A stretch of 64,000 nucleotides of DNA from Phycisphaerae bacterium. GTDB taxonomy: Bacteria > Planctomycetota > Phycisphaerae > UBA1845. The notes below the pieces were generated by a model. The model searched no databases and was not told the DNA's origin. It saw only the letters and a list, made by a program, of their open reading frames with translations. Position numbers and translations under genes: made by a program. Where the stretch lies: NCBI GenBank assembly GCA_024102815.1, contig JAGFJJ010000057.1, positions 1 through 64,000 on the forward strand, read 5' to 3'. Shown one piece after another: positions 29,938-43,751 of this stretch. Within the stretch, counting starts at the first letter, position 1; each line of letters starts with the position of its first letter.

Positions 29938-30357
29938 ATCCTTCTCCGTGGGTTGAATTCGAGTCGTACCGTACGTTGGTTTCATCGGGGAGTATCTTAG
30001 CGTAACTGGCGAATTCCGGCCCGCCACTGCGCCGGGTGCGTCCCACCGACTTTTTGGGGCGCAAATCCCCGAGCCGCAGCAATAGGCCGCCTGACGATGC
30101 TTGTCAAGTTGTACTGATCGACTTGACCGATTTCGGACGGAAAACGGGGTCGATTCGGCGCAGATGGGGAAATCCCGGGGGCGCATTCGACGGGAAAGGC
30201 CGATAACTAAGCTGGCGATGGCGTTGGGAGGGCGGGATCGAATACTTTCTTCATGGTGGCGGCGCGGAATCCGCGCTGTTCGGGAACCCGGCACGTGGTG
30301 AAGCGTCCAAAGTCTCAGCGAGGCGATGTGCTCGGCGGTGCCTCCCGTCCCGTGCCC
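29938..30357. other. Divergent intergenic region between ahcY and the ECF sigma factor
   Basis: About 420 bases, or 315 if the sigma factor begins at 30253. I see no RNA gene, no SAH-riboswitch core and no strong hairpin. Promoters for both divergent genes should be here, but no clear -35/-10 pair stands out. Confidence 0.4.
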
Positions 30358-30930
30358 ATGGAAGACCTGGAGCTTGCCGAACAGGTGCGGCAGGGTGATG
30401 TTGAGGCTTTTGCCAGGCTCGTGGAGAAGTATCAGGATCGCCTGTTTAACACGTGCTGGCGAATCTGCGGAAACCTGGAGGACGCCCGGGACCTGACCCA
30501 GGACGCCTTCTTGCGGGCATTCGAGAAGTTTGCGTCGTTCAGGCATCAGTCAAGCGTCTACACCTGGTTATTCCGAATCGCCGTGAACTTGGCGCTGAGC
30601 TATCGCCGGAAGCAGGCCGTCCGATCGGAGGTTACTTTTGATGCGGATGCGCACTTCGGCGCACAGGCACGGGGGCTCGTTCAGCCGGGAACAGCGGGCA
30701 GCGTTGAGGACGAGCCCGATGCGGCAGTGGCGGGTCGAGAGCAGCAGCGGAAAGTGACGGACGCGCTGCGGCGGATGGACGCCGAACAGCGGGCGGTGCT
30801 GGTGCTGCGGGACATCGAAGAGATGAATTACGAGGAAATCGGCATCGTGCTCGAGCTGCCCGTCGGCACCGTGAAATCGCGGCTGCACCGGGCGCGGATG
30901 ACGCTGCGTGATATGGTTTCGGGCGCCTAG
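30358..30930 (+). CDS. RNA polymerase sigma-70 family, ECF subfamily
   Basis: 190 residues from the ATG at 30358 ([14 protein letters not shown]), where similarity to ECF sigma factors begins; the frame is open back to 30253. Region 2 is at about residues 10-80 ([47 protein letters not shown]). A linker follows, then region 4 ([39 protein letters not shown]). It directs RNA polymerase to a regulon that often includes its own operon. An anti-sigma-like gene follows 90 bases later on the same strand. Confidence 0.9.
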
Positions 30931-31020
30931 CCGTCTGTCGGGGGCTGGAAGTGGATGAAACGGATTTCGTGAGTCCTGTAAGGAAACTCGCAACGGGAAG
31001 GATCGCGGCGGTCTGATTTG

Positions 31021-32733
31021 ATGAACGCGGATCGGTCAAACGACAGGGAAGTGTTACTTTCGGCGTACCTGGATGGTGCGTTGGCCGATGGCGACCGCGC
31101 CAAGGTCGAGGCGCTTCTTCGGCGTGACGCCGATTTGCAGCAGTTGCTTGAAGATCTTCGGGCGAATCGTGAAGCGCTCCTGTCGCTGCCGCGTCATTCT
31201 GCGCCCGCGACGCTGCTGAGCGATATCCGCGCACAATTGGAACGGCAGGAGTTGCTCTCGGAGGATATGACGCGTCCGGTGGCGGTCGGTGGCGGGCGCA
31301 GCGGGTGGTGGGCGTTTGCATCGGCGGCGGCCATGGTGGGGATTGTCGCCCTCGGCACCTACTGGGTAACGAGTGATCGAAACGGTACCTCACCGTTTAT
31401 TCCGGGCGCGCAGTTGGCGATGAAGAGCCCCGGCAAAGATGCGAAGGGGCCGGCGGGAGCGACCCCCGAGTCCTCTGTTGCTTCCGCTGAGCGAGCCGCA
31501 CGGCCGGATGCAGCCAAGGTGGACGAGGTTGAGCGCCACCGGTCTATGGAAAAAAGCAGCCCGGTTGATGCGGGACGCGACCGGGCCGACAAAGAAACAG
31601 CACGGACGAAGGTTGCGACCAGGTCGAGGGGAGCAGATGAGGCTCCCAGCGGATCGCCGATCGCCGCCACGTCGGAGGCGGTACGACTCGGCGCGAAGGA
31701 TTCCGCGAAATCTCCGCGGTTCCTCGGACAGCCCGATTCGCGCACGGATTCGGATGCCCCCAAGCTGGAAGGTCGGCTCCTGGCTCTGGCCGACGCAGAA
31801 CGGAAGATTGACGCCGGCATCGATCCGCGACAACTCGTCGAGCATCCGTTCGCGAATGAGTCACTTCGGCTGGCGGTAACGGCCGCATCGGATCGCCGGC
31901 GTGAAGCGATGGTCAAACGGCTGGTCGATGATCTTGCCTCGCTGGGCGCTGAAGATGTTGAATCGGTGTCCGATGACAGATCCCGGCTTCGCCAGTTCTA
32001 TGTTCAGGGAAAACCGGGAAAGAACTTTGCTTCACCCGGAAATGAGGTTGAACTTCTGGTACGCGTCCGCGCGGATGAACTGCCTTCGCTGGTCGACAGG
32101 GTTTGTGGGCGTGCCGCCGGATCGGAGACCGTGGCGCTGGAATCGGGGCCGGTGGTTATCGTCGGCCGGAGTGAGATTCGCGCCACACTGCAAAGGCGTG
32201 CGACATGGGACCGTACCATGCCGCTTGCGCCCGTGTTTCCGAACGATGGCTCAAAGGCCGTTGCCGGAAACGAGACGGAAGGGTCGTCCGCCAAGGCGAA
32301 GTCGGAAGCGAAAGAGACACCCCTCGCGGATTCCGAGTGGTTGCCGTGGGGCGGGTTGTTCCCGCTCGTGGGGATCGATCCGGCAGCGCTCCGCAGTACT
32401 GGGGATTCCGTGCCTGCTGAAACGACCGAGGATGCGAGTCCGGCGGTCGTAAAGGGCGATGATGGTGCCGTTGTGCCAGCCGCGGGATCGCAACCGGTTT
32501 CGGGTTCGGAATCAGCACAAGGGCCTTCGCTGGTCGAGCGACGAATGCAGGATCTTCGTCCCGAGCGCGCGGAACGGGGCCAGACGTCTGCCGGAGTTCC
32601 CATCGTGGATGATCGGTTTGTCACGCTGCTGATACGCTTCGATTCGCGCCCTACGGTTCCTTCAAAGGCACCGGCGGCGGCGACTCCCGGTTCCGAGGCC
32701 GACAGCGGCGACAAAGAGGGCATTCACAAGTAG
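31021..32733 (+). CDS. Transmembrane anti-sigma factor-like protein with large extracytoplasmic part
   Basis: 570 residues from the ATG at 31021. The N-terminal 80 residues (VLLSAYLDGALADGDRAKVEALLRRD) have the helical anti-sigma domain pattern, but without the zinc HxxxCxxC motif. A single membrane segment (WWAFASAAAMVGIVALGTYWV) follows at about 98-120. The long outer region is rich in Ser, Ala, Lys and Asp to about residue 260, then turns into a mixed domain (EVELLVRVRADELPSLVDRV). Following an ECF sigma gene, it probably holds the sigma factor at the membrane until a signal arrives. The stimulus is unknown. Confidence 0.75.
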   Translation: MNADRSNDREVLLSAYLDGALADGDRAKVEALLRRDADLQQLLEDLRANREALLSLPRHSAPATLLSDIRAQLERQELLSEDMTRPVAVGGGRSGWWAFASAAAMVGIVALGTYWVTSDRNGTSPFIPGAQLAMKSPGKDAKGPAGATPESSVASAERAARPDAAKVDEVERHRSMEKSSPVDAGRDRADKETARTKVATRSRGADEAPSGSPIAATSEAVRLGAKDSAKSPRFLGQPDSRTDSDAPKLEGRLLALADAERKIDAGIDPRQLVEHPFANESLRLAVTAASDRRREAMVKRLVDDLASLGAEDVESVSDDRSRLRQFYVQGKPGKNFASPGNEVELLVRVRADELPSLVDRVCGRAAGSETVALESGPVVIVGRSEIRATLQRRATWDRTMPLAPVFPNDGSKAVAGNETEGSSAKAKSEAKETPLADSEWLPWGGLFPLVGIDPAALRSTGDSVPAETTEDASPAVVKGDDGAVVPAAGSQPVSGSESAQGPSLVERRMQDLRPERAERGQTSAGVPIVDDRFVTLLIRFDSRPTVPSKAPAAATPGSEADSGDKEGIHK

Positions 32734-33722: not shown

Positions 33723-34127
33723 GTGGCTGTGCGCCGCAAGAGAAAGCTGTACGTCGCGGGGATCATCGAGCGAAGCGACAACGTGATACTGATCCAGGTT
33801 TCACCGGAAACCGGGGACGGCGAGCGACGCTGGCAGTTTCCGCGAGGGGCGGCGCGGGAGGACGAGTCGCCGGAAGGGGCGATGCGTCGCGTGGGTCGAT
33901 CGGCTGCGGGAGCGCCTGTGGAAATCGTTGTCGGTCAGCCGCCGCTTCTGGCGCAGATCGATGGCGAAGAAGTCGAGCTCCGCTATTTTTTCTGCGGGGT
34001 GGCGTTGAGCGAGACGCGCGAGCTGGATGAGGCGAGATGGCGATGGATCCGCAAGGGGCATCTGCGCGAATACGATTTCGATGACCCCTCGAAAGAGGTT
34101 GCCGAATGGTTGTTGGAGCAGGGGTAG
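33723..34127 (+). CDS. Nudix-fold protein with degenerate Nudix box
   Basis: 134 residues from a GTG at 33723 with GGAGAG at about 9 bases. The fold markers of bis(5'-nucleosyl)-tetraphosphatase-like Nudix proteins are present: AAGIIERSDN-like start, RRWQFPRGAAREDESPEGAMRR, then a WRWIRK segment. The box should read Gx5Ex7REUxEExGU. Here the start is kept (GAAREDE...) but RE is RV and the EE pair is SA, so the metal-binding glutamates are missing. It is probably not a normal pyrophosphohydrolase; it could be a binding or regulatory domain. Confidence 0.75.
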   Translation: MAVRRKRKLYVAGIIERSDNVILIQVSPETGDGERRWQFPRGAAREDESPEGAMRRVGRSAAGAPVEIVVGQPPLLAQIDGEEVELRYFFCGVALSETRELDEARWRWIRKGHLREYDFDDPSKEVAEWLLEQG

Positions 34128-34186: not shown

Positions 34187-35965
34187 ATGGCCGTGATCCG
34201 GGAGAATCGAATTCGAATGAACGGGTCGGATCAAACCAGGAACATCCAGTTCGTACTCCGCGGGATCATCCTGGGGAGCCTGCTTCTCGCGAGCGGCTGC
34301 GTCTGGGAGCGCGAACGAGCAGCGAAGCTGGACTGGGGCGTTGCGCCGCAAGCAGCGGGCAGTGGTTCGCCCGCCACGCGCGACACCATCGGATCGCTGA
34401 GCTACTACGACAACCTCGGTTCGCTGGAAGTCGGCGGATACGGGCTGGTCATCGGACTGGGCAACGCCGGCTCGAGCGATTGCCCGAAGGCGGTTTTCGA
34501 TCAACTGGTGGAGGAGCTCTACAAGGAATATGAGGCCTTTCATGGCGGCAGGCTGCCGCGCGGGCTCACGCCGGAGCGGCTGATCCGCGACCCCGACACG
34601 GCGGTGGTCGTCGTGCAGGGGCGAATTCCGCCGGCGGCGACGCCGGGGACGCGGTTCGAGGTGGCGGTCAAGGCCCTGCCGGGAACCCAGACGCGATCAC
34701 TCCGCGGCGGTCGCCTCATTCCTACGCCGCTCAAGATCCACCGGAGTACGGCGACAGGCCGCGTGCTGGCGGGAAAGACGCTGGCCAAGGCGCAAGGGCC
34801 GGTGTTCTTGAATCCCTTTGCCGGAACCGGTGCGGCAGTGAGCGAAACGCCGCTGGAGGGCGTCCTGCTGAGTGGCGGCGTAACGCTGGAACCTCGTCCC
34901 GTTCGCCTGGTGCTTTCCACTCCCTCTTACCTCGCGGCGCGCCGTGTGCAGGATCGCATCAACGCCCGTTTCACCGGCGGCGCCCGGATCGCCAATGCCA
35001 CATCGCCGTCCTACGTGGAGGTTCGAATTCCCGAGGAATTCCAGAGCGACGAAGGGCATTTTCTGGCACTCGTGCGAGCGCTGTACCTCTCGACCGATCC
35101 CGCCTTCACCGGGGCGAAAGCGCGGGAGCTCGGTCAGGAACTCCTGCGCCCGTCGGCTCCGCACGCGCGAATCGCGCTGGCATTCGAAGGCATGGGGCGC
35201 GAATCACTGCCGGTCCTTCGCGAGCTGTACGCGAACTCGCAGGACTACGTGAGTTTTTTCGCGGCCGCAGCGGGATTGCGCCTGGGGGACGATCTGGCGT
35301 GTGACGCGATGAGCCGCCATGCCGAGAGCGAGAGCAGTCCGTTTCGTCACCAGGCGATCCGTGCGCTGGGGGAAGCGCGGGGCATGGCTGCGGCGGGGAT
35401 TACCCTGCGACGCCTGCTCCATGCCGACGACGTGCGCGTGCAGATCTCCGCCTTTGAAGCGCTGTCCGCACGAAACGATCCGGTGGTGGATGCGGAGATG
35501 ATCGGCGGGGACAACCTGGCGCTGGCGCAGGTTCCGGAAAGCGCCTCGCGGTTTGTGTATGTCCGGCGGACGGGCGAGCGCGAAATCGTGCTCTTCGGAG
35601 ACGATCTGCGCGTCGTGCCGCCTTGCCTCTATCGATCTCCGGACGGCTCACTCACACTGCACGCCTCGGCAGGTGACGAGGAGGTGACACTGCTTCGTAC
35701 GGTCCCGTCCACCGGCTCTGCCTCGCCGCCGGTACAATCCAGCCCAAGATTGCACGATCTCGTAGAGATGATGGGAAGCGACGCGGAGGTCGATCTGCAC
35801 GGGAAGGTCCTCGGGCTGGGTGTCGACTATGCCGCCGTGGTTCGTGCCCTGTACCAGCTCAGTCGCGATCAGGCCATGAACGCAGAGTTCGTGCTCGAGC
35901 AGCCCAACCTGACGGATGTTCTCGGGCCCCTGCGCGAAGGCGGTCGGCCGGAATCGGAGCTGTAA
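34187..35965 (+). CDS. FlgI-like (flagellar P-ring related) lipoprotein with inserted HEAT-like repeats
   Basis: About 592 residues from the ATG at 34187 (another ATG at 34217). The lipobox LLLASGC puts the lipidated Cys near residue 38. The next part matches FlgI: GGYGLVIGLGNAGSS, SLRGGRLIPTPLK, and RVQDRINARFTGGA with SYVEVRIP. From about residue 320 to 450 there are helical pairs in HEAT style (ARIALAFEGMGRESLPVLRE, RHQAIRALGEARGMAAAG). The end, VDYAAVVRALYQL, resembles the FlgI C-terminus. FlgI forms the flagellar P ring in the periplasm and is not a lipoprotein. No other flagellar gene is in the window, so a different ring or envelope job is possible. Confidence 0.75.
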   Translation: MAVIRENRIRMNGSDQTRNIQFVLRGIILGSLLLASGCVWERERAAKLDWGVAPQAAGSGSPATRDTIGSLSYYDNLGSLEVGGYGLVIGLGNAGSSDCPKAVFDQLVEELYKEYEAFHGGRLPRGLTPERLIRDPDTAVVVVQGRIPPAATPGTRFEVAVKALPGTQTRSLRGGRLIPTPLKIHRSTATGRVLAGKTLAKAQGPVFLNPFAGTGAAVSETPLEGVLLSGGVTLEPRPVRLVLSTPSYLAARRVQDRINARFTGGARIANATSPSYVEVRIPEEFQSDEGHFLALVRALYLSTDPAFTGAKARELGQELLRPSAPHARIALAFEGMGRESLPVLRELYANSQDYVSFFAAAAGLRLGDDLACDAMSRHAESESSPFRHQAIRALGEARGMAAAGITLRRLLHADDVRVQISAFEALSARNDPVVDAEMIGGDNLALAQVPESASRFVYVRRTGEREIVLFGDDLRVVPPCLYRSPDGSLTLHASAGDEEVTLLRTVPSTGSASPPVQSSPRLHDLVEMMGSDAEVDLHGKVLGLGVDYAAVVRALYQLSRDQAMNAEFVLEQPNLTDVLGPLREGGRPESEL

Positions 35966-36011: not shown

Positions 36012-36995
36012 TCAGCGCACGCTCAGTACGACCTTGCCCAGCGGTCCTTGGGCGAGCCGCTCAAAGGCGGGCACAAGCTGATCCATCGGAAACACCGTAT
36101 CGACGATCGGGCGGCGGTGGATGCGCTCCAGCGAAGCGACGATGTCGCCCCATGCCGTGTGTGCCTCGGTGGCGGAATAATCCGACACCGAGACGCCGCC
36201 GATTCGCAGCCGCTTGAAAAGCAGCTTGGCGGTATTGAACCGGGGTACCGGACCTGCAAGCATTCCCACGACGCTGATGCGTCCGTGGGGACCCATCGCA
36301 TCGCAAAGACGCGAGAAAATCTCACCCGCAACGTTATCCACCGCGAGATCCGCGCCCCGACCATTGGTGGCATCTTTGACTTGGCGAACGAAGTGCTCAT
36401 TCTCCGGATCGAGGACCAGATCGCAGCCCTCCTCGCGCAGTCGGTCGTATTTCGCCGGGCTCCGCGACAGGCCGATGACCCGATGACCGGCGGCCTTGGC
36501 CAGATGCACCGCGGCGAGTCCAACGCCGCCGGATACACCGCTGATGATGACGGCGCCCGCTTCGCCGGATCCCCATTGGAACAGAGCCTGATGGGCCGTG
36601 ACATAAACGAGTGCGGCCGCGGCCGCCTCCGGATCGCTCCATTCCGCCGGAGCGGGAACGACGACCTCCTTTGGGACGGTTACGTACTCCGCGAATGTTC
36701 CCGGACGTGACACGCCCGCTTCGCCGCGAAGCACGATCACGCGCGTTCCGGGTCGGGCGTCCGATACGCCCTCGCCAAGGGCCTCGATTGTGCCGACCCC
36801 GTCGCGTCCGAGGATGTGGGGCAGGCTCGGGCGAGCGGGGTAGAGATTCTCCGCCAGGAAGCGATCGGCCGGGTTGAGCGAAGCGTGGTGCAGTCGGACG
36901 AGCACCTCTCCGGGGCCCGGATGCGGCTGAGGATGATCCGCCACGAGTCTCAAGGCCGACAGGCCGGTGAATTCGTCCAGCAGCCATGCTTTCAT
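36012..36995 (-). CDS. Zinc-independent MDR oxidoreductase (quinone oxidoreductase-like)
   Basis: 327 residues from the ATG at 36995, with GGAGACGG upstream. The MDR fold is clear: HHASLNPADRFL, LGRDGVGTIEALGEGV, and the NADPH loop GVSGGVGLAAVHLAKAAG. It lacks the catalytic-zinc cysteines and the four-Cys structural zinc site, as in the QOR group. It likely reduces quinones or enones with NADPH in the cytoplasm; substrate unknown. It converges with the FlgI-like gene (46-base gap) and diverges from the M14 peptidase. Confidence 0.85.
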   Translation of the reverse strand: MKAWLLDEFTGLSALRLVADHPQPHPGPGEVLVRLHHASLNPADRFLAENLYPARPSLPHILGRDGVGTIEALGEGVSDARPGTRVIVLRGEAGVSRPGTFAEYVTVPKEVVVPAPAEWSDPEAAAAALVYVTAHQALFQWGSGEAGAVIISGVSGGVGLAAVHLAKAAGHRVIGLSRSPAKYDRLREEGCDLVLDPENEHFVRQVKDATNGRGADLAVDNVAGEIFSRLCDAMGPHGRISVVGMLAGPVPRFNTAKLLFKRLRIGGVSVSDYSATEAHTAWGDIVASLERIHRRPIVDTVFPMDQLVPAFERLAQGPLGKVVLSVR

Positions 36996-37216
36996 CGTCC
37001 GTCTCCTTCCGAGAAGTTCGCTGTCACCGGGCACCGTCTGCTGCAAAGAAATGGAGGGTAGGCCTCGGGCGACCATGTGACAAACGACGGATAGTCGACC
37101 CGCGAAACGATACATTTCAGGTTCGCTTCGGGCGTCCTAAATTGAATCAGGGAGGCAATTTAGGTATGCTGGAGAATCGGCATTTCTTGGTTCTTGTCGC
37201 GGAAGGAGCAGGTTGC

Positions 37217-40200
37217 ATGAATCGGGATGGGTGGGGAATCGGATTGTGCGGGCTCGCCGTCGTATCGTTGGCTCTCCTGGCGGCGCAGGCAAGCGCCGGG
37301 CCGAATGAGTCCAGCGTAACGCACCAGGCCATTGCGAAGTTCGATCTGGCAGGGCTGCGGGCTTCGCTCGCGGCACAGCCGGAGAGCATTGACTCGCGTG
37401 GTGCGGATGGCCAGACGCTTTTGCAGACGGCCGTGCGCATCGGGGCAGTCCGCGAAGCGGAGTTGCTCATCGAAAGCGGCGCGGACGTTCGTGCCGTGGA
37501 TGCGTGGGGCCGAAGTGCCTTGCATTACGCGGCAATGGAAAATCAATCCGCATTGATTACCAGGCTCGTCGCCGCAGGTGCGGATGTCGGCTCACGTGAC
37601 GTCTGGGGCGAAACGCCATTGCAAACGGCGGCGCGCCGGCTCCAGATCGAAGCGGCGGAATCGCTGCTCGAGGCCGGGGCGAATGTCAGCGCGGTAAACG
37701 ATGATGGTCGAACAGCTCTGCATCTTGCCGTCGATCAGGGTTCCTGCCGGTTTTCTGATGAAGATCGTATGGTTCGGTTCGTGAGTCTGCTGCTGGGCGC
37801 GGGTGCCGACGCGGCGGCCATTGATGCACATGGTTCAACGGCGCACGCCATCGCCGTCGCACGCGGTTACGGACGTACCGCGGCGTTCCTGGACACGCGC
37901 GGCGGGAAGATTGCGGGCGAGGTTCCGCCCGCTGAGGCCTCGCTGTCGGACGGGAATCCGACGCCGGAGGGCCTCCTGGCCGCCTACCGCACGTACGCCG
38001 AAATCGGGCCGCTCATGTTGGATATCGAGACGAATTATCCGACCATCGCAAAGCGGTACGATCTCGGGCTGAGCGTGCAGGGACGGCATCTTTGGGCCAT
38101 GCGTCTGAGCGACAACGTCACCGTCGAAGAGGACGAGCCGGAGATGTTCTACATTTCCACGATGCACGGAGACGAGATCGTGGGGATGGAGAATTGCCTG
38201 CAATTCATCGAGTACCTGACCGGTCAGAACGGCATCGACTCGCGGGCGACGGACCTGGTGAACAACCTCGATCTGTGGATCCTGCCGCTGATGAACCCCG
38301 ACGGATACGATCGTGTCTCCAAGATACGGTACAATGCCAACGGAGTTGATCTGAACCGCAACTTTCCCGATCCGTTCACGAGCCCCAACAACACCACGGC
38401 CGGACGCCAGGCGGAGACCGCGGTCGTCATGAACTGGGCCTTCGGGCGGTACTTTGTTCTCGGCGCGAACCTCCACGGCGGAGAGCTCGTCGTCAATTAC
38501 CCGTATGACAACAACCCCGGCGGTGATTCGGTCTTCACGCGGTCGCCGGACGAGGACTCCTACGTTCCCATCAGTGAGTCGTATTCGATCGAGAATCCGC
38601 CGATGTGGTCCAGTCCGTCTTTCTACCACGGGATTACCAATGGCGCGGCCTGGTATTCGACAATGGGTGGGCTGCAGGACTGGGGATATCGCTACATGAA
38701 CAGTCTCCAGACGGTAATTGAACTCAGCCTGAACAAGCAGCCGCCCTCCACGGACATCCCCCTGTACTGGAATAACAATCGTGATGCCATGTTCGCCTAT
38801 GCGGAATGGACCCTGGAGGGAATTCGCGGCATCGTGACCGACCGGGACAGCGGGCTACCGATTCAGGCGGCGGTTCGTGCGGATGGGCGGGCGGTCGACT
38901 CTCTTACGGATCCGAGCGTGGGCAATTACCACCGAATTCTCAATCCAGGTACCTACGGCATGACCGTCAGTGCGGCCGGGTACGACACGGTACGCGTCGA
39001 GGGGATCTCGGTGAACGCCGGCGGTGCCACACGCGTGGACGTGGCCATGGGCGGCCCCGCGGCGCAGGTGCAGGGCCCCGACGGCGGGGAATCGCTGGAG
39101 CTGAATACTCCGGTGATGATCCAGTGGACGGGCGACGCCTCCGCCCAGTTTCAGGTGCAGCACACCACCGACTACGGTGTGATCAATGTTGATACGGACG
39201 ATTTTGAAAGCGGTGTCCTGGGCCCGCAGTATGCGACCGGCGGCCAGTCCGCTTGGCTTGTAACCAGCAGTTCATCCCATGGCGGCGCGCAGTCGGTTCG
39301 AGCCGGGGCGATCGGCAACGATCAGAACACCTGGCTCTCACAGTGGGTGGAGGCGGACCAGGTGAGCTTCTGGTATCGGGTGAGCACCGAATCGGGCTAC
39401 GATTTCTTCCAGTTCTACGTGGACGGCGAATCGCGCGTGCGCGCCTCGGGCAACGTGAACTGGACCAGCTTCTCCACGGCGCTTTCGCCCGGACCGCATC
39501 TGCTGCTTTGGGAATACGCCAAAGACGGCAGTGCGACCGGTGGCAGTGATACCGTATGGGTCGATGACATTCAGATTCAGAAGGACGACACGGCGTGGCA
39601 GGATGTTGTCCCGCTGACAGGCGTGGGGGATTCCTCGACGTCCTGGACGCCCACGACGGAAACGACCACGGGGCGCGTTCGTGTCCGTGCCTTTTACGGT
39701 GATGGAGCCTACGGCCAGTGGGATGTCTCCGGCAGCGACTTCACAGTTGAAGACACGGGTGGTGTGAGCGCGCCGCTGGCAGCCGGTGCTCCACACGATG
39801 TGACCAAGGAGCGATACATCTCCTTTGTTCCCAACAACGCAAATCCGGTGGCGTTTGAAGTGGCCTTGGACAGCAGCGTATATTTTCCGGGCTCGGTTGG
39901 AACACTGGGCTGGGTGGATGTGCCGGATGTCAATGGCGTCTCGCGCATCAGCAACACACCGGTATTCCGGACTTGGTCGGAGCCAGTGCTGCATGTTGGT
40001 GATTGCCCGATCACCCCTGCGGCGGCGTATTCCCTTCGGGCCACGACCAACGGCACGACATTCTCCGCACCCCTCTTCGTGAACACGACGCCGGTACCCA
40101 GTCCGCGAGCGTGGGGCGATGTGGTCGGCGCACCCAGCGGTGGCGTCTGGCCGGCGCCGGACGGTACGGTCAGCGGATTTGACATATCGGCTGGCGTGCA

Positions 40201-40357
40201 GGCGTTTCAGCAATTATCAACAGCACCGCACTTCACGCGCGTGGATGTGAACCCCGCAGAACCGGATAGCGTGGTCAATGGCGCGGACATCCTCCAGGTA
40301 GTCCGCGCGTTTCAGTTGATGGCATATCCGTTCCCCGCGCCGGCGGATTGCCCGTAA
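37217..40357 (+). CDS. Secreted ankyrin-repeat / M14 zinc carboxypeptidase multidomain protein
   Basis: About 1046 residues. The ATG at 37217 follows GGAAGGAG at 8 bases and gives a signal peptide (LAVVSLALLAAQASA). Ankyrin repeats at about 35-232 (TLLQTAVRIGAVREAELLIE, GRSALHYAAMENQSALITRL) precede an M14 domain with H317/E320 (MHGDE), R381 (VDLNRNF), H420 (LHGGE) and E502 (IELS), the complete zinc and catalytic set. A carboxypeptidase-regulatory beta domain (GIVTDRDSGLPIQA) and a jelly-roll-like region follow. The last 180 residues (KERYISFVPNNA ... NGADILQVVRAFQ) are shared with the neighbouring protease. Probably extracellular. Confidence 0.85.
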   Translation: MNRDGWGIGLCGLAVVSLALLAAQASAGPNESSVTHQAIAKFDLAGLRASLAAQPESIDSRGADGQTLLQTAVRIGAVREAELLIESGADVRAVDAWGRSALHYAAMENQSALITRLVAAGADVGSRDVWGETPLQTAARRLQIEAAESLLEAGANVSAVNDDGRTALHLAVDQGSCRFSDEDRMVRFVSLLLGAGADAAAIDAHGSTAHAIAVARGYGRTAAFLDTRGGKIAGEVPPAEASLSDGNPTPEGLLAAYRTYAEIGPLMLDIETNYPTIAKRYDLGLSVQGRHLWAMRLSDNVTVEEDEPEMFYISTMHGDEIVGMENCLQFIEYLTGQNGIDSRATDLVNNLDLWILPLMNPDGYDRVSKIRYNANGVDLNRNFPDPFTSPNNTTAGRQAETAVVMNWAFGRYFVLGANLHGGELVVNYPYDNNPGGDSVFTRSPDEDSYVPISESYSIENPPMWSSPSFYHGITNGAAWYSTMGGLQDWGYRYMNSLQTVIELSLNKQPPSTDIPLYWNNNRDAMFAYAEWTLEGIRGIVTDRDSGLPIQAAVRADGRAVDSLTDPSVGNYHRILNPGTYGMTVSAAGYDTVRVEGISVNAGGATRVDVAMGGPAAQVQGPDGGESLELNTPVMIQWTGDASAQFQVQHTTDYGVINVDTDDFESGVLGPQYATGGQSAWLVTSSSSHGGAQSVRAGAIGNDQNTWLSQWVEADQVSFWYRVSTESGYDFFQFYVDGESRVRASGNVNWTSFSTALSPGPHLLLWEYAKDGSATGGSDTVWVDDIQIQKDDTAWQDVVPLTGVGDSSTSWTPTTETTTGRVRVRAFYGDGAYGQWDVSGSDFTVEDTGGVSAPLAAGAPHDVTKERYISFVPNNANPVAFEVALDSSVYFPGSVGTLGWVDVPDVNGVSRISNTPVFRTWSEPVLHVGDCPITPAAAYSLRATTNGTTFSAPLFVNTTPVPSPRAWGDVVGAPSGGVWPAPDGTVSGFDISAGVQAFQQLSTAPHFTRVDVNPAEPDSVVNGADILQVVRAFQLMAYPFPAPADCP

Positions 40358-40505: not shown

Positions 40506-43500
40506 CTACGGACAGTTGTCCGGCGTCACGAACGGATACGGCCCCTGGCTGAAGGCATTTACAACCTGGAGGACGTCGGTTCCGTTTGCAACCTTGTCCG
40601 GTATCTGCGGATTCACGTCGACCCATGTCATATGCGGCGCCGACGGGTCATTGGCGAACCGCTCCAGGACCGCCACGATATCGAATCCGTTCACCGTGCC
40701 GTTGGGCGGATTCCAGGTTTGTGTGCCCGAATCGAAGGACCCAACGGTGTCGCCCCACAGGCGGCCGTCCGATGGCTGCGGCGTCGTCGAGACACCGTAT
40801 TCGTCCGAGAAATTCGTGCCATCGAACGTGGCGCGGATGCCATACTGGGCACCGGGCACGATGGCGCAATCGCCGATGTGAATGACGGCCTCGGCCCACA
40901 GCGGTGCGGGTGTGATCGGCGTGCTCCGCAGGCGGGCAATGCCGTTCCCGTCCGGGACGTCCACCCAGCCGACCATACCCGGCGAGCCCGGTCCGGCCAG
41001 CATTTCCACCTGGAAATTGACCGGGTCAGCGCCGTTGTTGGGGCTGAAGGAGATGTAGCGGCTCTTGGTCATCGCCCACGTGCCGATCGGGGCGACCGGC
41101 GGCTGTGCTCCGCAATTTCCGCCCGCCGAAAGGTCCATCTCATTGTAATCGGGAGACAGGCCCAGGCCTTCCGACAGACCCGCGATGCCATCCACCGCAG
41201 CGATCTGCGTGTAGGCGAGATGGATCTCTCCGTCGAAGAGCATTTCGATCTGGAAGGTATTGCTGTTCAACGCATTGTATTCCGTCACGCCCAGCCACGT
41301 GACCACGACGCGATCGGCGAGCTGCTTCCAGCTCACCGCTCCGGCCTGGTTTGGAGAGAGGTCGTCGTACAGTGCCGAGATGCGCGGCCGGTTGAAGTGT
41401 TCCGCCAGCGTCTCGGTGTAATCGCTGTCGCCACTGTTGAAGGTGATGTAGCCGTTACTGCCCACGTAGAACGTGGTGTACGAAACACCATACAGCGATA
41501 CGCTTGCCCCGCCGGTCAGGGTGACGGTTGCGAAGGCGTCGTCCCCGAGAGAGAGACCTGTTCCACCGGTCGGGTCGGTCGGCAGCGCAGAGATGGGCTC
41601 CACGCAATACGAATAGAAGTCGATTGTGCCGTTCGGCGAGAACGTAATCAACTTGTTGTCCAGGTCATTGTCGCTGGCTCCGTACTCTTCCGTGAAGAAA
41701 TCGGGCACTTCCGGCGTGGTGAAGGTGTAGCAGGCACCTCCGTTGTTATCCGAGCCGGTGTTTTCGGCCTCGTCGGTCGCTTCAACGGCGTAGTAGTATG
41801 TCTGATTGTCCTGGAGGCCGCTCACCGTCACCTGCGGAGCGTTGGAATACGTCGTGTCTTCGGCGCTGCCATTCAGCACGCCGCAGGACAGGCCGTAACG
41901 AACGCGCCCCGAAGACAACTCGTCCGTGTCAAAGCTGATGGTCACGTCCCTCGGACCCAGATCGACGAGCTGGACGTTGGAAATTGCCGGGGGCGTGCAG
42001 TCGACGGGCGCCGTCTCGACGACCGCGATATTGGTGCCGCCCTGGCCGTCGTCGGCGTCGATATACGTGGCCGAGATGGTGTCACCGGCGGAGACCAGAA
42101 GAACGCCGGGGGCGTTTACCGCGCCGAGCGGCATGACGCCTTCGAACCGCCCGGAATCCAGGAACTTCTCCGTCAGGATCATCGTCTCGCCGGAAGGTTC
42201 CGAGTCGGAGGAGATGACCATCGTTGCAGTGTCCAGGGCTGTGGGACTCAGATTCAGACCACAATCGACCAGCTCGACCGTGACCATGCCCGAACAGCCG
42301 TACTTGCCCGCATCGAGCTTGACTTCCCCGGCGTCGGAGCAAAGCGTTGCCAGTGAGACGGTATCCACCGCCATCAACCCCGTGTTGCCCGTATCGAGCC
42401 AGTCGCTGAGCCTCGAGGACGACGAACCTCCGCCGGTCCACGAGACCGAGAACTTTCCGTACCAGTCGGAATCGTTGTTGCCGCAAGCGGCATACCCGCC
42501 GTGAAGCTGGCCGATGACGCGATGGTCCTGATTGAACACCGGCGATCCCGATGAGCCGGGTTCCGTCGTGCCCAAATCCCAGTCGATAATCCGCACGTGT
42601 GACCCGTTACCAGGAACGGTGGTGCCCAGGTAACTGGTCGTCTGCGTGGACTGATATTCGAAGCTGATACGCTTCTCGTCGGTATTCGGGTGGTGGATAC
42701 CAATGGCCGTTGTGGCCTCCGCCCCGCTGCGGTCCCATCCGGCAAAGGAAATGTTCCAGGCCGGGTTGGGGTCCTCATCAAGCTCGACCAGTGTGAAATC
42801 CGACGTCGAATAGGACGAGCGGAAGAACGAGCCAGACTGAAACTGATTCAGCAGACCGTCGCCCGGGCCGCCACTCGCGGGGCTTCCCGGCGTTCGGCAC
42901 GTCGAGTTCTCGTAGTTCCAATAGACCACGAGCGAGGCCGCGTTCCCGCTGCTGATTCCGCAGTGGTTGGCCGTCATGAAATAGGGTTTCAGGTCCTGCG
43001 CCGTGTTGTTGACCATGAAGCCGGTGCAGAACGTCGATCCACCCGTGGAGATGACGCCGATCGCCGGAATGTCCAGCCGCCAGTCGTCTCCCTCCGGGCA
43101 AATCACGTCCACGTTGCACGATCCCGACAGGGCCTCGGGAAGCTCCGGCACATCCCAGAACCCGCGATAGCCGTAATTGATGGATGTCAGCTCCAGTCCC
43201 AGTTCGCCGACCTTGTCGGCCGGGATTGTGACCTCGACCACCATCTCGCCGCCGGGGAGTGCCGGCGTCCAGAGCTCGCCGTGTGCCGCGTTATCGCGAG
43301 CGGTGAACGGCCGCACCGTCTGTTGATAGTCGGGCGTGTAGATCATCAACCGCCCGCCTTCCGGCATGGCGTACCGCGTGAACCCCAGGTTGACCGACGT
43401 TGCCTCCGGTGCAATCACGCGCAAACGCCAGAGCATCGTGCCGTCGGGCAGCTTCTCCCACGTGCCGGAGTTGTCCGGCGTGAAGAACACTTCGTTGGGA

Positions 43501-43751
43501 ATTGCGTAGCGCGGGGGCAAACCGGCCTCGTTACGCTGATCATCCTCCAATGCCACGGCATCGCGGTCCACCGCTTCCACTTCTGCGGACGTGACCGCAT
43601 TCAGGGGCAGCACGTCGAACTGCCGCGCCGTGGGCACCGTATCGAGAAGCGCCGGTCCCTTGTCCGCGCCCCACGCCGAGGTTCCCGTGGCCAGCAGGCC
43701 CGCAACCCCGAGGGTGCAAATACTTCGCCAAAAATCCAGTCGCTGTTTCAT
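40506..43751 (-). CDS. Secreted lysyl-endopeptidase-like (S1 trypsin-fold) protease with shared C-terminal module
   Basis: 1081 residues. The signal peptide is ICTLGVAGLLATGTSAWG. The propeptide-like part (FGFTRYAMPEGGRLMIY style) and catalytic domain resemble Achromobacter protease I. The triad is His in TANHCG (near 262), Asp in TSDFTLVELD (near 318) and Ser in EPGSSGSPVF (near 400). After about residue 480 come beta-rich modules, including a fibronectin III-like segment (ISFDTDELSSGRVRYGLSCG). The last 180 residues are homologous to the M14 protein next door (KSRYISFSPNNG ... NGTDVLQVVNAFS). It is exported and converges on that gene. Confidence 0.87.
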   Translation of the reverse strand: MKQRLDFWRSICTLGVAGLLATGTSAWGADKGPALLDTVPTARQFDVLPLNAVTSAEVEAVDRDAVALEDDQRNEAGLPPRYAIPNEVFFTPDNSGTWEKLPDGTMLWRLRVIAPEATSVNLGFTRYAMPEGGRLMIYTPDYQQTVRPFTARDNAAHGELWTPALPGGEMVVEVTIPADKVGELGLELTSINYGYRGFWDVPELPEALSGSCNVDVICPEGDDWRLDIPAIGVISTGGSTFCTGFMVNNTAQDLKPYFMTANHCGISSGNAASLVVYWNYENSTCRTPGSPASGGPGDGLLNQFQSGSFFRSSYSTSDFTLVELDEDPNPAWNISFAGWDRSGAEATTAIGIHHPNTDEKRISFEYQSTQTTSYLGTTVPGNGSHVRIIDWDLGTTEPGSSGSPVFNQDHRVIGQLHGGYAACGNNDSDWYGKFSVSWTGGGSSSSRLSDWLDTGNTGLMAVDTVSLATLCSDAGEVKLDAGKYGCSGMVTVELVDCGLNLSPTALDTATMVISSDSEPSGETMILTEKFLDSGRFEGVMPLGAVNAPGVLLVSAGDTISATYIDADDGQGGTNIAVVETAPVDCTPPAISNVQLVDLGPRDVTISFDTDELSSGRVRYGLSCGVLNGSAEDTTYSNAPQVTVSGLQDNQTYYYAVEATDEAENTGSDNNGGACYTFTTPEVPDFFTEEYGASDNDLDNKLITFSPNGTIDFYSYCVEPISALPTDPTGGTGLSLGDDAFATVTLTGGASVSLYGVSYTTFYVGSNGYITFNSGDSDYTETLAEHFNRPRISALYDDLSPNQAGAVSWKQLADRVVVTWLGVTEYNALNSNTFQIEMLFDGEIHLAYTQIAAVDGIAGLSEGLGLSPDYNEMDLSAGGNCGAQPPVAPIGTWAMTKSRYISFSPNNGADPVNFQVEMLAGPGSPGMVGWVDVPDGNGIARLRSTPITPAPLWAEAVIHIGDCAIVPGAQYGIRATFDGTNFSDEYGVSTTPQPSDGRLWGDTVGSFDSGTQTWNPPNGTVNGFDIVAVLERFANDPSAPHMTWVDVNPQIPDKVANGTDVLQVVNAFSQGPYPFVTPDNCP

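Follow-up and report, generated by a model that had tools for sequence, protein, structure and literature searches.

FlgI and related envelope proteins

The flagellar P-ring protein FlgI forms a 26-mer ring in the peptidoglycan, and the presence of a FlgI homologue in a genome is usually read as evidence for a flagellum. The FlgI fold is divided into an upper inner ring domain (IRU, residues 12-159), an outer ring domain (OR, residues 1-11 plus 160-230) and a lower inner ring domain (IRL, residues 231-346); residue 18 is placed at the FlgH-binding pockets, and the OR domain resembles OmpA-type peptidoglycan-binding folds (PMC8298488). In the literature on planctomycete FlgI, or on smc together with a lipoprotein, no description of a FlgI-HEAT lipoprotein was found, and neither smc nor any flagellar protein is mentioned in the main text of a paper on the essential genes of Planctopirus limnophila (PMC10632474).

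The gene described here is located in a window (i.e., the whole stretch of DNA that was analysed, 64,000 nucleotides) from a Phycisphaerae bacterium, and encodes a lipoprotein in which a HEAT-repeat domain interrupts the FlgI fold (Table 1).

Table 1. Positions in the window of the FlgI-HEAT lipoprotein gene and its features.
Feature	Position	Strand	Remarks and basis
FlgI-HEAT lipoprotein, whole gene	34187..35965	+	592 aa plus stop, which ends at 35965; alternative start codons at 34106 and 34220
Lipoprotein signal peptide, lipobox LASGC	34220..34300	+	Acylated Cys38 at 34298-34300; sequence, homologue alignment
Flexible linker, lipid anchor to FlgI core	34301..34375	+	Low confidence; pLDDT <50 over most of residues 36-57
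FlgI upper inner ring and outer ring (IRU + OR), residues 64-302	34376..35092	+	PF02119; Foldseek; VIA
Inserted HEAT-repeat domain, residues 303-432	35093..35482	+	PF13646; alphaRep/HEAT structural matches
FlgI lower inner ring-like C-terminal domain (IRL), residues 433-572	35483..35902	+	Structure and profile comparison
C-terminal tail, ends GRPESEL, clade-specific conserved end	35903..35962	+	Alignment, tail motif counts

Lipid anchor and domain architecture

A first-pass annotation of this DNA had described FlgI-type motifs following a lipobox, and the motifs SLRGGRLIPTPLK and RVQDRINARF as well as the lipobox LLASGC were all found in the protein. The lipobox cysteine is conserved in 81/81 aligned homologues, and with this invariant residue behind a signal peptide the protein is a bacterial lipoprotein, as the annotation had proposed. 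In E. coli, Asp at position +2 favours inner-membrane retention. Since Asp is found at this position in only 10 of the 81 homologues, an outer-membrane anchor is favoured, and would be the most likely location should the Lol +2 sorting rules also apply in Planctomycetota. Across the family, the spacer between the lipid anchor and the first glycine of the core is 41-66 residues long. The family alignment also showed that the C-terminal tail is conserved within clades in two forms, RPESE(L) and DTVPR.

Pfam searches assigned residues 80-304 to FlgI (PF02119; 81.6 bits vs. a curated cut-off of 25.3, E 6.7e-23) and residues 380-433 to HEAT_2 (PF13646; 29.0 bits vs. 27.7, E 1.4e-6), with FlgI found in 81/81 and HEAT_2 in 79/81 family members. 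Pfam profiles for OmpA/Pal did not match the protein at E values up to 0.1. Conservation is highest in the FlgI core, followed by the HEAT domain and then the lower-ring domain.

An AlphaFold2 model built with the 81 homologues (mean pLDDT 88.6, pTM 0.85) was compared with FlgI ring structures, as had been suggested in the first-pass annotation. The top Foldseek matches of the N-terminal part were the FlgI P-ring structures 8z5n and 7bgl (E 3e-14), and VIA aligned this part with FlgI at a Z score of about 11 across about 200 residues; the high rmsd to the FlgI structures (9 A) probably reflects a different domain orientation in the model. The helical part resembles alphaRep/HEAT structures, with Z scores of up to 13.3. 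Residues 432-583 were also folded alone (pLDDT 91.8), and this C-terminal domain had just two PDB matches with a Z score of at least 5, both to the C-terminal domain of FlgI (FlgI residues 248-365); by VIA re-alignment, 8z5n scored 6.1 and 7bgl 5.4, with the next match at 2.4. FlgI was not listed for this domain by Foldseek alone. Profile-profile alignment placed the C-terminus collinear with the C-terminal end of FlgI (E-values of 5e-5 to 3e-4 in pairwise comparison), and the FlgI profile directly detects this end in more distant homologues, the best being L192 (1.2e-6 for a single-sequence search space). The C-terminal match is consistent across methods and weak for a single sequence.

IRU, OR and IRL are all present, and the FlgI domain limits reported in PMC8298488 place the inserted HEAT domain at the OR/IRL boundary, where it splits the FlgI fold. 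Pfam, structure prediction and profile comparison therefore agree with the initial description of HEAT-like helical repeats between a FlgI core and a FlgI-like C-terminus.

Distribution and phylogeny

Homologues were found in 58 of the 60 closer relatives (none in G012 and G023, and in G014 and G029 only the C-terminal part, at a contig end), which, along with their wide occurrence in the phylum sample, puts the feature far beyond chance. A search of the genome contigs with the single sequence gave no match; a profile search did give matches, and its named records are mostly MAGs of Phycisphaerae and other Planctomycetota. The protein was found in every sampled Phycisphaerae genome outside the window's order. 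It also occurs in another block of families (f39, f80, f89, f106 and f107), which we infer to be Planctomycetia. In the rest of the phylum, the matches listed are mostly of canonical FlgI length. The FlgI-HEAT protein is near universal in these two planctomycete groups, usually as a single copy, and the family represents a part of the flagellar ring that has been reused elsewhere.

In a tree of the shared core, the 39 HEAT-bearing rows all grouped together (99/97) and were separate from the 21 canonical FlgIs, among them that of Salmonella (94/79); L192 and L225 are long branches. A candidate second tandem copy in L049 had no Pfam match and was dropped. Genus g132 has a third protein of FlgI type, whose N-terminal part carries a membrane segment (L243:3970-5742 on the minus strand; L244:3142-4956 and L245:3422-5398 on the plus strand). 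In L243, and weakly in L244, this protein also has a match to ChapFlgA (the P-ring chaperone FlgA) and appears to be a FlgA-FlgI fusion.

Retention in genomes without flagellar ring genes

The genome that contains the window also encodes a canonical flgI adjoining flgH (C31:157110-158150), as well as FlhA, and reading frames resembling flgA and flgJ were recognised by eye. The first-pass annotation had asked for such a second flgI with flgH, and the case that it had set against its own reading, a divergent P-ring protein that is the only FlgI of a normal motor, does not apply here.

Among 80 mostly near-complete genomes surveyed for flagellar genes, PF02119 was found in all 80 and FlgH in 64. 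The other 16 genomes have neither flgH nor a canonical full-length flgI, and the FlgI-HEAT protein is kept in every one of them; flhA is also missing in seven (G186, G279, G370, G390, G407, G423 and G435), and the other nine are G316, G325, G333, G354, G412, G419, G424, G428 and G436. Three of the genomes without flhA, G186, G370 and G390, are single-contig assemblies with 98-99% completeness. Although many of the surveyed genomes are MAGs, in which absence of a gene from one genome may be an assembly gap, gaps do not explain 16 joint losses of two flagellar genes with FlgI-HEAT retained.

The residues at the contact sites have also changed. The Salmonella rod-contact residue K63 is Lys in 2/81 FlgI-HEAT members vs. 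10/20 canonical planctomycete FlgIs, and K95 is Lys in 13/81 vs. 15/20, while the FlgH-pocket residue 18 (I18) is Arg in 80/81 FlgI-HEAT members, with a Gly in the window protein. Among the loci examined, no FlgI-HEAT gene was seen inside a flagellar cluster. It is thus strongly supported that the FlgI-HEAT lipoprotein is non-flagellar and is not a P-ring protein. The idea of a non-flagellar ring or scaffold, put forward in the first-pass annotation, accordingly holds in its first half, on the 16 genomes and the lost rod-contact lysines; its second half is carried forward below as a proposal. Automatic "P-ring" labels are misleading in these bacteria.

Linkage to smc

By far the most common conserved neighbour of the FlgI-HEAT gene is the gene that immediately follows it downstream in the same orientation (57 of 120 loci), which was identified by Pfam as smc (condensin), with matches to SMC_N and the SMC hinge. 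With tblastn, smc was found in 63 of the 120 loci, often after a short gap; in L189 the interval is about 2.7 kb. Using coordinates of profile matches in the systematic set, smc was located downstream of the FlgI-HEAT gene, on the same strand and at the expected interval, in 56 of 79 genomes, including f39 (17/17), f15 (9/9), f9 (8/9), f14 (6/6), f12 (4/6), f80 (4/5), f13 (3/3), f11 (2/3) and f2, f10 and f106 (1/1 each). Canonical flgI was found near smc in 0/20 cases. Adjacency was not found in f1, the family of the window (0/7), or in f4 (0/4) and f8 (0/3), all of which keep both genes, and it is also missing from most of the window's order. Since the window's family has lost the adjacency, the smc neighbour cannot be seen in the window, and smc is found on another contig of the same genome (C6:207409-210960). 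The conserved order was initially missed because the first loci came mostly from the window's own order, and the wider set showed smc.

The window itself encodes, on the plus strand, an ECF sigma factor and, after it, a probable anti-sigma factor whose N-terminus is zinc-finger-like (30253-32733), as well as a 1123-residue protein with ankyrin repeats, an M14 zinc carboxypeptidase domain, a carboxypeptidase regulatory-like domain and, by eye, a dockerin-like C-terminus (36986-40357). On the minus strand, a 1081-residue protein combines a trypsin-like domain with beta-sandwich domains, and has a C-terminus with a weak GC-type dockerin-like match (40506-43751).

Outside the FlgI-HEAT groups, FlgI-like proteins with lipobox-like starts are encoded upstream of smc in G060, G092, G081 and G106 (E-values of 1e-14 to 8e-8 when about 100 sequences were searched with the FlgI profile), and G090 carries a contig-truncated FlgI-HEAT relative upstream of smc (family profile 1e-23); as for the distant homologues, these E-values come from very small search spaces. 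In other lineages, unrelated genes are found upstream of smc. HEAT is missing from the otherwise FlgI-like architecture of the G060 and G092 proteins, and the earlier arrangement may therefore have been a HEAT-less lipoprotein next to smc, with the HEAT domain perhaps inserted later. In deep planctomycete families, strongly diverged FlgI-like lipoproteins were observed immediately before smc (L225, L242, L223 and L224), and at least two of them, L225 and L242, have no HEAT domain.

Since SMC is cytosolic, any link with a periplasmic lipoprotein would be indirect, i.e., through co-expression or a common role in the cell cycle. The chances are about even that the adjacency is functionally meaningless, representing an ancestral gene order that chance or a common promoter has preserved. 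The two proteins cannot touch, and three families have lost the adjacency and retained both genes, which fits this explanation; however, many families have kept the order although protein identity falls to about 30%, as have deep lineages whose lipoprotein the family profile barely recognises. This explanation concerns the linkage alone, and is compatible with a role of the protein as an envelope scaffold.

FtsZ was found above the curated cut-off in 0 of 392 genomes of the phylum, which makes an envelope protein encoded together with smc an attractive, albeit unproven, candidate for division or segregation. In a more specific scenario, which we consider unlikely, the protein would be an envelope component of the FtsZ-less planctomycete cell-cycle machinery; produced along with SMC, it would act as a scaffold or ring in the periplasm and link the segregation of chromosomes to constriction of the envelope, to budding or to outer-membrane attachment. 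The position beside smc in a phylum without FtsZ above the cut-off nevertheless provides a concrete gene for studies of Planctomycetota division and envelope biology. Weak FtsZ-like matches were seen in 10 of the 392 genomes, including three of family f14 (same class). Loss of FtsZ as the cause of the FlgI-HEAT distribution was considered and dropped, since FtsZ is absent phylum-wide, also where the family was not found.

Proposed function and alternatives

On balance, the FlgI-HEAT protein is probably an ancient non-flagellar paralogue of FlgI that serves as a constitutive, lipid-anchored periplasmic scaffold or collar of the envelope, with HEAT as a docking arm and an ancestral link to smc. 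Once exported, the protein would be anchored by its lipid, with the outer membrane as the most likely site, and would reach into the periplasm. Based on this anchor and the OmpA-type likeness of the FlgI OR domain (PMC8298488), a scaffold at the level of the peptidoglycan is proposed, in which the FlgI-derived domains would act as a scaffold or collar, possibly forming a ring, and the HEAT domain between OR and IRL would dock a partner. Retention without flagellar ring genes and the usual smc neighbour suggest that the protein probably has a housekeeping role in the cell envelope, as a constitutive component and not as a motility part. Ancestral co-encoding with SMC could indicate that it is probably produced together with the cell-cycle machinery.

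A possible but rather unlikely alternative is a monomeric tether between outer membrane and peptidoglycan that functions like Pal on a FlgI outer-ring fold and forms no ring. The lipid anchor with its 41-66 residue spacer, the OmpA-like similarity of FlgI-OR (PMC8298488) and the near universal, usually single-copy occurrence are all consistent with a tether, but the protein has kept all three domains of FlgI, among them the inner-ring domains that make subunit contacts, which suggests that assembly matters, and no OmpA/Pal profile match was found. A role as collar in a different machine that spans the envelope, such as the secretin channel of a type II secretion system or type IV pilus, is quite improbable. 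The flagellar P-ring is itself a bushing around a rod, FlgI-OR has a fold similar to secretin N3 domains (PMC8298488), and the lost rod-contact residues would fit a different cargo; however, no secretion or pilus genes stood out among the conserved neighbours of the FlgI-HEAT gene. Finally, a divergent P-ring component still acting in the planctomycete flagellum, e.g., as an extra collar with HEAT as a stator or disc scaffold, has FlgI homology and the co-occurrence with flgH and flgI in 64 of 80 FlgI-HEAT genomes in its favour, but is very improbable and largely refuted, as is the planctomycete-specific P-ring variant suggested in the first-pass annotation, by the 16 genomes that keep the gene without flgH or canonical flgI (seven also without flhA), by the changed rod-contact lysines and FlgH-pocket residue, and by linkage to smc instead of a flagellar cluster.

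Comparison with known systems

Pal and other OmpA-like lipoproteins share with the FlgI-HEAT protein a possible link between outer membrane and peptidoglycan, along with the OR resemblance reported for FlgI (PMC8298488), but the FlgI-HEAT protein does not match their profile. FlgH, the L-ring lipoprotein (PF02107), is likewise a lipid-anchored component of an envelope ring; this likeness is by analogy only, since FlgH has a different fold and no sequence match to the FlgI-HEAT protein. HEAT repeats of the HEAT_2/alphaRep type (PF13646) correspond to the inserted domain, but form stand-alone repeat proteins there and an insertion inside the FlgI fold here. FlgI (PF02119; 7bgl, 7clr and 8z5n) has IRU, OR and IRL in the same order and the motifs G.GLV.GL and SL.GG in common with the FlgI-HEAT protein. 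In FlgI, however, OR and IRL are continuous in a mature protein of about 345 residues, whereas the FlgI-HEAT protein carries an insertion of about 130 residues. FlgI is also soluble in the periplasm without a lipid anchor, has rod-contact lysines that are lost in the FlgI-HEAT family, and is tied to flgH and the flagellum, while the FlgI-HEAT protein is a lipoprotein that also occurs without flagella and is linked to smc.
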